Positions 30,273-33,874 of a DNA stretch of 33,936 bases are shown in pieces (position 1 is the stretch's first letter; each line of letters opens with the position of its first letter). The notes beneath the pieces were generated by a model. It was not told the DNA's origin and ran no database searches. It saw nothing but the letters and a program-made list of their open reading frames with translations. This DNA comes from Lachnospiraceae bacterium. Its GTDB lineage: Bacteria > Bacillota > Clostridia > Lachnospirales > Lachnospiraceae. Made by a program: the position numbers and the translations under genes. The stretch lies in assembly GCA_017557525.1 (NCBI GenBank), contig JAFYYN010000189.1, forward strand, positions 1 to 33,936, in the 5' to 3' direction.

Positions 30273-30638
30273 ATGGGTGAAATCAGACTTCATGAAGGCG
30301 AGATGAATGTTATGGAGCTCTTATGGTCCAACAAGCTTCTCGCTGCTAAAGATATAGCAAAGATCATTAAGGAATACGTTGGCTGGGAGAAAAACACCAC
30401 ATATACGGTAATAAAGCGTCTTATAGACAAAGGTGCCATTGAACGTCAGGAACCGGGTTTTATGTGCAAGGCCATAGTATCCAAGCAGAAGATCCAGGAA
30501 ATAGAGATAAAAGCGCTGCTTGATAAGCTTTTTTCTGGTTCATTCCCTGCCATGTTTGAGCAGTACTTAAAAACCGGAGCCTTAAAGGCCGGAGAAGTAC
30601 TGGAAATAGAGAACAAACTTAAGAGTTATAGACCATAA
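30273..30638 (+). CDS. BlaI/MecI/CopY family transcriptional repressor
   Basis: The 121-aa protein is a winged-helix repressor of the penicillinase repressor family. Its opening (IRLHEGEMNVMELLWSNKLLAAKDIAK), the recognition helix region NTTYTVIKRLIDKGAIERQ and the dimerising C-terminal helices (VSKQKIQEIEIKALLDKLF...) match BlaI/MecI. Partners of such repressors are normally BlaR1/MecR1 sensor proteases, or a copper pump for CopY, but none is beside it. It may be unlinked from its sensor or respond to something else. AAGGGG precedes the ATG by about 10 nt. Its own promoter carries repeated AAGTACT sites, so autoregulation is plausible. A strong terminator follows. Confidence 0.9.
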   Translation: MGEIRLHEGEMNVMELLWSNKLLAAKDIAKIIKEYVGWEKNTTYTVIKRLIDKGAIERQEPGFMCKAIVSKQKIQEIEIKALLDKLFSGSFPAMFEQYLKTGALKAGEVLEIENKLKSYRP

Positions 30639-31280: not shown

Positions 31281-31907
31281 GTGAATATAAAAAGTTTAAA
31301 ACAATCGAATAAAGGGTTCACGCTGGTGGAGATATGTGTAGTTATGGTTATATTTTCTATTCTTGCTTCTATTACTACAATGAGCTTAATAAGCTGGCAG
31401 GAATATTCTACATATACTGAGCAGGAAGAAAAAGCAAGCTTAGTTTATATGGCTGCAAGAAATAAGATAGCTCAACTAAAATCGAACAATGCCCTTGAGG
31501 GACTTGAAGGCTGGGGAGATAAATGTAATGGAAACAACAAGCTCGAAGGAATAACATATACCAACTCATATATTACATATCCGTCCGGCCTTTCTCCACA
31601 GACAACCTATTATACATATTGCACAGCTGATGATTATGAAAAGTATTTAGATAATACATTGAATGATCCTATAAAAAAATTGCTATTTGATCTGACAGTA
31701 GATTATGTTTATGATAAAAACATGCTTAAAGCTAATATATCAATAGAGTATTCAGCTGATGGAACTATTCATGCAGTTTACTATAGCGACAGGACTAAGA
31801 TAAACTATGCTTCGTCTGGTTTAGAGGAATATAATTTATCTGCTTCATCAAACAGAACTTCAGACAAACTGTATGAAAATATAATTGGAGCGTATCTATC
31901 ACAGTAG
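31281..31907 (+). CDS. Prepilin-like protein (type IV pilin / pseudopilin)
   Basis: The N terminus MNIKSLKQSNKG|FTLVEICVVMVIFSIL is a class III prepilin signal. Cleavage is expected after G12, with Phe+1 and Glu+5 (E17), followed by a hydrophobic helix. The rest (about 40-208) is a polar globular domain rich in Tyr, Ser and Asn that I cannot assign to a known pilin class. It starts with GTG at 31281; AGGTGGTGA ends about 7 nt upstream. At 208 aa it fits a minor pilin or pseudopilin. The prepilin peptidase, assembly ATPase and platform protein needed for its export are not in the window and may lie to the right. Confidence 0.85.
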   Translation: MNIKSLKQSNKGFTLVEICVVMVIFSILASITTMSLISWQEYSTYTEQEEKASLVYMAARNKIAQLKSNNALEGLEGWGDKCNGNNKLEGITYTNSYITYPSGLSPQTTYYTYCTADDYEKYLDNTLNDPIKKLLFDLTVDYVYDKNMLKANISIEYSADGTIHAVYYSDRTKINYASSGLEEYNLSASSNRTSDKLYENIIGAYLSQ

Positions 31908-31944: not shown

Positions 31945-33399
31945 ATGACAAAGGCTTTTTACATACTATGTAAAAAAGATAACAAAGGCTCAGCTATTAT
32001 TACCGGGCTTGTAGTGAGTACGGTATTAATTGTTTTGTGCCTTTCTTTATTGCTGGTGTCATATTCGTTATTCCTTTCTTTGTCAAAAAACTCATCGGAC
32101 TTGTCGAACAGGGAAATGTTATTTTCAGCAGTTGAAGCTTTTGAATATGAACTTACTGATGATTCTTTAGATATCAGCAATGTCAGCACAGATAATATCG
32201 GAATCCGGGAATATATATATAATTCTATAAAGAGCGGTGAATGGAAAGCCTATACAGGTTCGAATGAAAATGAAAGTTTTAAATATTTCAGCCTTACCCC
32301 AATAGGAAGTGTGAAAGTAGTGGTTCAGCTGTATTGGCAAAAAGCTTCATTGAACTTAGTGGAGAATATAAGTGAAGGTGATGCCGCATCAGGGCTGGCG
32401 GGGTCAAAATTAAACGCTATATACAGATTATACAATAACAAAGGAGAAATTCTGGTAAAGACTGAAAGAAGCTATATCCTAAATTGTCAATCTGTTATAT
32501 CCGATACTGATGATACGGATACTGAAGGTGAAAGCGGTGATACAGGAAGTGAAACAGATCAAAATGACAACACACAATCCCAGGATGCTGCAGAGCCACA
32601 TGATGATGGTAATAGACCTGAATTGAACACCGAACATGTTATAAACAATAACGAGAATGATAATAATATTAGTATAAAATTAATTATAACAGGTGCTAAT
32701 TATGATAATTCAACTGGCTACTGGGGGAGCATAACTATTTCTAATGAATCCGATTCTGATCTTGAGAACTGGAGATTTTATGTTTATTCTAATGATGAGC
32801 TAAGTAGTAACGGAGATGGTTCGCTTAATAAAATATCTCAGGGTAAATATCTCGTAGAAAATAAAGGATATAATCAGGATTTAAAGAAGGGAGAATCGTG
32901 TAGTATCAGCATTTCATGTGCAAGTGGGTATTTTAATACTCTTCCTACAGCGGAGCTGATTAAAGAAGTAAGATATCCGGTAAGCAAGAGTGATTATGAA
33001 GTCAGTTATATAACTACTAACAGCTGGGACAATGGTTATAACGGGAAATTCATAATTACAAATAATTCTGAAAAACCTATACTGGATTGGAATCTACAGG
33101 TGATATTTAATGGAGATATTACGTCTATTCCAAATGCTGACATTAAAGAAAAAAATGGGAATAACTATACTTTAATTAATAAAGGCAGCTATGGTTACAA
33201 TATACCGGCAAACAGCAGTTTAGAAATTGGATTTGGTGGAACGGGAACTCCCCCCGAAACAGTCACAGATTATATATTATGGGCATTTTTAAATGATCCA
33301 TCTGAAATCGCTAATACTACAGTAAGCGAATTATGGAAATGGGAACGCATCGGTTCAGAGAATTTGAAAGAAACGGGGGGTGATCCGAATGAAGCTTGA
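31945..33399 (+). CDS. Prepilin-like protein with two CBM2-like modules
   Basis: The 484-aa protein starts with a short basic leader ending KKDNKG (G15), then a hydrophobic helix SAIITGLVVSTVLIVLCLSL, a class III-like signal without Glu+5, as in PilX/GspK-type minor pilins. A pilin-like domain (about 40-185) is followed by an acidic Asp/Glu/Thr linker (about 188-235). Two beta-rich modules follow. Module 1 (about 241-335) has W260 and W276. Module 2 (about 350-445) has NSWDNGYNGKFIITN (W361) and LDWNLQVIF (W382). The W-x-x-G...V/I-x-N...W pattern is that of family 2 carbohydrate-binding modules, which bind cellulose or xylan. The Shine-Dalgarno is weak (GAGGAG about 17 nt upstream). The gene overlaps the next by 11 nt. 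Confidence 0.8.
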   Translation: MTKAFYILCKKDNKGSAIITGLVVSTVLIVLCLSLLLVSYSLFLSLSKNSSDLSNREMLFSAVEAFEYELTDDSLDISNVSTDNIGIREYIYNSIKSGEWKAYTGSNENESFKYFSLTPIGSVKVVVQLYWQKASLNLVENISEGDAASGLAGSKLNAIYRLYNNKGEILVKTERSYILNCQSVISDTDDTDTEGESGDTGSETDQNDNTQSQDAAEPHDDGNRPELNTEHVINNNENDNNISIKLIITGANYDNSTGYWGSITISNESDSDLENWRFYVYSNDELSSNGDGSLNKISQGKYLVENKGYNQDLKKGESCSISISCASGYFNTLPTAELIKEVRYPVSKSDYEVSYITTNSWDNGYNGKFIITNNSEKPILDWNLQVIFNGDITSIPNADIKEKNGNNYTLINKGSYGYNIPANSSLEIGFGGTGTPPETVTDYILWAFLNDPSEIANTTVSELWKWERIGSENLKETGGDPNEA

Positions 33400-33874
33400 T
33401 AACAAGGGCACCACACTTGTGGAAATAACAGCGGGTTTTCTGATGATGGCTGTTATATTTGTCTCATTCATAAAAATAATAAAACTATCCAGTACAATGA
33501 CGACTGCCGCAATAGATTATAAGAACAATACGCTTGGTTTTGAGGAGAAATACTACAACGGATATAACTACAAAGTAAAGTATAAAAATACATCCGAATA
33601 TGCCTTTAGAAATGAAGACAATGGTATAGAGATAATGACTAAAGGAAATATTGTACTGACAGAATGGCATAAGGAAGATGACGGAGATTACTTTACAGAA
33701 TGGCATCGTGATGAGGATGGACAGATGACATCTGTTACATTAGGAGATAATCCTGTAACTGTTAAACTTAACAATATCAGCCTTATGATGATTGAAAATA
33801 TAAGGGATAGCGGTATTTCAAAATATAAGATTTTCAGATATATATATACTCGGCCGGCGTCAGAAAATCCTTAG
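33389..33874 (+). CDS. Prepilin-like protein, third of the operon
   Basis: The N terminus MKLDNKG|TTLVEITAGFLMMAVIF is a class III prepilin signal with cleavage after G7 and Glu+5 (E12), followed by one hydrophobic helix. The 161-aa product ends in a polar domain rich in Tyr, Asn and Asp with a repeated TEWHKEDDGDYF/TEWHRDEDGQM block. The ATG at 33389 has GGGGGG 8 nt upstream; the in-frame GTG at 33380 is part of that Shine-Dalgarno region. It overlaps the end of the CBM2-bearing gene by 11 nt, so the two are translationally coupled. After the stop there are only 62 A-rich bases before the window ends. Confidence 0.82.
   Translation: MKLDNKGTTLVEITAGFLMMAVIFVSFIKIIKLSSTMTTAAIDYKNNTLGFEEKYYNGYNYKVKYKNTSEYAFRNEDNGIEIMTKGNIVLTEWHKEDDGDYFTEWHRDEDGQMTSVTLGDNPVTVKLNNISLMMIENIRDSGISKYKIFRYIYTRPASENP

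Follow-up and report, generated by a model that had tools for sequence, protein, structure and literature searches.

A Glu5-less prepilin with tandem CBM2-type modules, encoded in a pilus operon of a Lachnospiraceae bacterium

Introduction

What would a pilus subunit do with a pair of carbohydrate-binding modules (CBMs)? The question is raised by the gene at 31945..33399, on the forward strand of the window, the whole stretch of DNA analysed here, which is contig C173 (33936 bases) of a 3.9 Mb Lachnospiraceae genome and ends just past the next pilin gene. A first-pass annotation, made from the sequence alone, had proposed that this gene fuses a prepilin to tandem CBM2-like modules and that the product holds plant fibre. 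We find the fusion to be real: with high confidence, 31945..33399 encodes a prepilin carrying CBM2 modules within a pilus operon. We propose that the protein is probably a K subunit with CBM2-type cargo, one of a set of minor pilins (H-K-I-J) belonging to a type IV filament, and that it probably serves as an adhesin. The hold of rumen bacteria on plant material is only partly understood, and with a recognisable CBM2 pair on a pilin, glycan binding by a pilus can be put to a direct test on two purified modules.

A prepilin joined to two CBM2-type modules

The open reading frame (ORF) starts at an ATG and encodes 484 residues. The class III-type leader (residues 1-15, 31945..31989) reads by inspection KKDNKG/SAIITGLVV, with K14-G15 followed by a hydrophobic stretch, and is probably cut after G15. 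The hydrophobic N-terminal helix (residues 16-50, 31990..32094) spans residues 14-50 in the AlphaFold2 model, so that the KG at 14-15 and the helix of the first-pass annotation both stand. The mature residue +5 is T20 and not Glu, in contrast to the flanking pilins, which have Glu5, and the protein matches neither N_methyl (Pfam) nor TIGR02532 (NCBIfam). The pilin head (residues 51-181, 32095..32487) aligns in nine homologues and is modelled as a helix with strands. It is separated from the modules, as had been described, by an acidic linker rich in Asp, Glu and Asn (about residues 182-240, 32488..32664), with pLDDT below 50 at 182-223 and 234-239.

Against the whole pilin, the Pfam CBM_2 profile scores 58.5 bits (E=9.1e-16) in two stretches, for a cut-off of 24 bits. 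In a six-frame search of its own genome, module 2 (residues 346-450, 32980..33294) by itself scores 46.7 bits, above the cut-off, while the divergent module 1 (residues 241-345, 32665..32979), which has beta strands in the model, falls just under it at 23.2 bits. Module 2 has the predicted beta-sandwich fold of CBM2. The profile comparison and the structure prediction, both suggested as checks by the first-pass annotation, thus favour its assignment. Together, the leader and the CBM_2 match define a pilin module joined to a functional domain whose use is not confined to pili.

Over residues 252-462 there is a 31% match to the two CBM2 modules of a vWA-type protein, and a module tree for the origin of the tandem modules leaves 9 of its 14 inner branches open. 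As a separate observation, tandem CBM2 modules are followed by vWA or by subtilase (S8) in proteins of the genus at L097:3475-6879 and L098:1464-4916; these are uncommon-looking partners for CBM2.

A cargo slot before the last strand

The protein does not end with its modules. A C-terminal strand (residues 461-475, 33325..33369), assigned by DSSP in the model and bearing a W-K-W cap at 464-466, corresponds to the last strand in the model of the cargo-free homologue L042. In our reading it is the pilin sheet's final strand and would pair with that sheet. The cap, as W-x-W, is present in 12 of 19 short orthologues (Glu5-less frames of fewer than 300 residues), which a pattern search of L051-L079 and L099-L101 picked out; L054, L073-L076, L078, L079 and L100 have no qualifying short frame. 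Adding L046, L047 and L049, with the cap in L047 only, gives 13 of 22; L048 duplicates L053, which is counted and has no cap. We therefore consider, with fair confidence, that the modules sit in a loop before the conserved last strand. Of the layout described in the first-pass annotation, the fusion of pilin and modules holds, and the placement of the modules as a C-terminal appendage gives way to a probable insertion.

We rejected the large frames among the weaker homologues as examples of the same architecture. L063, L071, L072, L075 and L077 look like a different class of large prepilin-like proteins. Neither L072 nor L077 finishes with the cap, and the fetched stretch stops short of the C-termini of L063, L071 and L075. 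The cap is also missing from L099 (498 residues).

In the mechanism that we propose, the processed helix would join a filament similar to those of type IV pili (T4P) and type II secretion systems (T2SS), and the loop before the last strand would act as a cargo slot. Because the K subunit lacks Glu5 and is bulky, it is expected at the filament tip, and display there has fair confidence. Since the slot holds the linker and the two CBM2-type modules, the filament end would present a pair of domains of carbohydrate-binding type, most likely an adhesin whose target is the plant cell wall or some other glycan. Relatives in the genus appear to fill the same slot with other modules.

Relatives and turnover of the cargo

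Within the genus, a profile of the pilin domain has matches in 9 of the 24 genomes; samples of the family and of the order yield 36 of 397 and 12 of 392, nine of the 12 being already among the 36. With the whole protein as query the count for the genus was 10 of 24, G018 being found only through the CBM2 of another protein. Scanning genome contigs with a single sequence produced 95 pattern matches, none of them confirmed; an alignment-based scan found 12 loci encoding relatives. Eight of these relatives come from Lachnospiraceae metagenome-assembled genomes, and a rumen, omasum or horse-faeces origin is named for four, in line with the gut or rumen anaerobe that had been suggested.

Tandem CBM2-type cargo occurs in 4 of the 9 genomes: the window's own, G004, G002 and G007 (two loci). 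In G004 and in both G007 copies one module passes Pfam, and the other is recognised by alignment or by a sub-threshold CBM49 match. The cargo of G011 is a module without a Pfam match, that of G006 a Ser/Gly stalk, that of G009 an unassigned region of 264 residues, and those of G013 and G017 consist of Flg_new repeats in proteins of 623 and 1624 residues. Side observations concern three of these genomes. The prepilin-like K homologue of G017 (L034:4141-9015, reverse strand) has six Flg_new (Listeria-Bacteroides) stretches followed by a W-T-W cap, and that of G013 has four Flg_new stretches. G007 appears to hold two copies of the pilus locus, L029 and L038 (on C59 and C1), both with CBM2-type cargo, and has two ATPases of this type, on C1 and C71 (L096).

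We mapped the cargo onto a tree of two machinery proteins with 10 rows, in which 2 of 7 inner branches are starred. The tandem-CBM2 label requires 4 changes, at least 3 of them forced by starred branches, and is not clustered, since shuffled labels average 3.6. The distribution of the Flg_new cargo is consistent with one origin. Between species, the cargo is 21-37% identical, the low end being near the alignment floor, versus 66-88% for the platform protein. For G011 and one G007 copy (G007a), identity is 94% in the PilM/GspL-like protein, 85% in the pilin and 23% in the cargo, a value near the alignment floor, for which the G007a protein, cut by its contig end, contributed no more than its first 171 cargo residues. 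A subunit that is kept while its modules differ among relatives suggests an exchangeable adhesive tip.

The binding face and its ligand

In the CBM2 of C. fimi we take W17, W54 and W72 to be the binding strip and W38 to belong to the core. The pilin has Trp at 100, 131, 260, 276, 361, 382, 446, 464 and 466. The four that the first-pass annotation had named as a spaced CBM2 pattern (W260/W276 and W361/W382) are where it placed them, but W276 and W382 align with the W38 core and not with the strip, and W361 is the only one of the four that aligns with W17. At columns 17, 54 and 72, module 2 has W, Pro and Y, and module 1 has Y (N in one alignment), Gly and Y. By alignment, the surface aromatic strip W17/W54/W72 is absent from both window modules.

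The genus has 33 CBM_2 matches, 7 on the pilins and 26 elsewhere, of which 23 were used after one without a locus and two with an internal stop were dropped. All 23 readable non-pilin modules have Trp at columns 17 and 54; at column 72, 21 have Tyr, Trp or Phe and two have His. Among 11 pilin-borne modules, column 17 is Trp in five and Tyr in four, column 72 is Trp or Tyr in six, and column 54 is never Trp (Tyr in two). In two of the pilin modules a Trp stands within a few residues of column 54, so an alignment error is possible there. As aligned, the window modules, with W/Pro/Y and Y/Gly/Y, are unlike a standard cellulose binder. They share the predicted fold and the core Trp with the CBM2 modules of secreted glycosidases (6bt9, 3ndy, 6qfs, 1exg), and differ from them in sitting on a pilin, free of any enzyme, and in having no Trp at the W54 position. 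It is conceivable, though we would put it at somewhat short of an even chance, that the loop before the last strand is a permanent cargo socket in this genus, that species retain the pilus machinery and swap whole modules in the socket (tandem CBM2, Flg_new repeats and others) to switch the target of the tip, and that the CBM2 pair has been re-tuned from flat cellulose to another glycan.

A narrower form of our reading, whose odds overlap with it, makes the protein a fibre-binding pilus adhesin whose two modules use a strip of surface Trp residues to bind cellulose or xylan. CBM2 homology and the predicted fold speak for it, as do the relatives of rumen, omasum and horse-faeces origin, a CBM2-GH5 cellulase encoded in the window's own genome, and, in module 2, W361 at the W17 position with a Tyr at that of W72. 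It has to contend with the contrast at W54 and with a module 1 that has no Trp at any of the three strip positions. The W54 contrast became stronger with the full set of modules and lowered our confidence in such a ligand; we hold cellulose or xylan as the ligand only tentatively, and a fibre adhesin of this kind is a possibility on which we would not rely.

Rather unlikely, in our judgement, is that the modules are CBM2-derived spacers or fast-changing decoys that bind no sugar and vary under phage or host pressure. The missing W54 would fit this, as would the divergence of the cargo relative to the platform protein and the unlike cargo on neighbouring branches of the tree. Module 2, however, retains W361 and the Trp of its core and has Tyr as the third residue of the strip, and the tandem CBM2 of the vWA and subtilase proteins suggests a use in targeting.

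The operon and its filament machinery

The K-type gene lies between two other prepilin genes, as the first-pass annotation had reported. Upstream, at 31281..31907 (+), is a prepilin with the leader GFTLVE and Glu5 (N_methyl E=8.2e-07 and TIGR02532, both over cut-off), to which gene order gives a putative H role. Downstream, at 33380..33874 (+), is a putative I-type gene, placed likewise by gene order, that overlaps the 3' end of the K gene by 20 nt from GTG 33380, or by 11 nt if its start is ATG 33389. The latter has no pilin match in Pfam or NCBIfam and is read as a prepilin because of its leader NKGTTLVE; its product is also internally repeated (TEWHKEDDGDYF / TEWHRDEDGQM). Just upstream of the pilin genes is a regulator of the penicillinase-repressor (BlaI/MecI) type (30273..30638, +; PF03965 E=1.6e-18). 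ORFs resembling it occur at 7 of 9 loci, the window included, the Pfam scan having covered the window's own; the ORF lists of the G004 and G013 loci, which have other surroundings, contain none.

In relatives the order is four pilins, a 150-residue protein (absent from the ORF list of G013), a platform protein of the T2SSF family, two proteins resembling PilM/GspL and T2SSM (each under its Pfam cut-off), a T2SSE ATPase and a pilin with the leader GFTLVE. In the window's own genome the machinery genes resume at the start of contig C9, and gene order suggests that C173 and C9 adjoin. The locus has an H-I-J-K set with filament machinery, H, I and J being assigned by order and leader. As a side observation, a second type IV pilus locus in this genome (G000:C24, L095) has a PilB-type ATPase, PilT, two GFSLVE pilins and a gene of the prepilin-peptidase family.

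Could the filament instead be a T2SS-like pseudopilus, in which the K cargo controls the passage of secreted or polysaccharide substrates, or captures them, and does not attach the cell? GspF is the best-scoring family for the platform protein (310.9 bits, short of the cut-off of 424), the operon ATPase scores about equally as PilB and GspE (534.5 and 533.4 bits, both below cut-off), the T2SSM-like protein reaches 20.3 bits (cut-off 27.8), and PilT is seen at the second locus only. Lachnospiraceae, however, are monoderm and hence have no outer membrane to secrete across, and we judge a pseudopilus quite improbable. Finally, a chance or frameshift origin of the fusion is rejected, because a search for the same domain order, which the first-pass annotation had suggested, found this pilin domain followed by a CBM_2 match over cut-off in G004, in G002 and at both G007 loci (both G007 frames are cut by contig ends).

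Comparison with known systems

The first-pass annotation named CbpC of Ruminococcus albus as the only parallel; modular pilins as such are already an established class (PMC8179133). The kind is known, and the pilin-CBM2 architecture is apparently unpublished as far as our searches of open-access literature go: such a fusion is not described in the available portions of PMC4300822 and PMC5865380, nor was it found in the open-access literature searched. Pilins were implicated in the adhesion of R. albus to cellulose, a role doubted later (PMC3672088, PMC4300822). CbpC/GP25 of R. albus and Pil3 of R. flavefaciens are type IV pilins of rumen bacteria tied to cellulose adhesion, and Pil3 is a small pilin, with a mature form of 165 residues, akin to CbpC (PMC3672088). 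In the window, by contrast, a minor pilin bears two recognisable CBM2 modules as its candidate binding part. We know of no CBM in CbpC/GP25 or Pil3. The tapirins of Caldicellulosiruptor are another possible comparison.

Also comparable are PilB and PilC of Streptococcus sanguinis, a monoderm; these large minor pilins bear an adhesive module and are expected at the tip. They have Glu5, and their vWA or lectin module comes after the pilin (PMC8179133, PMC9934059), whereas the window pilin lacks Glu5 and apparently has its CBM2 modules before the last strand. The survey of modular pilins demanded IPR012902 at the N-terminus (PMC8179133, PMC9934059). Such a survey would probably pass the window pilin by, since it has no N_methyl match, which points to modular pilins probably overlooked by surveys keyed to GFxxxE. 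The window pilin is also like GspK and the H-I-J-K tip set in being Glu5-less and bulky and in apparently having an extra domain inside the pilin sheet (PMC8179133, PMC9934059). Unlike GspK, it carries CBM2-type modules where its relatives carry others, and its cargo slot bears on how a single filament may serve many functions.
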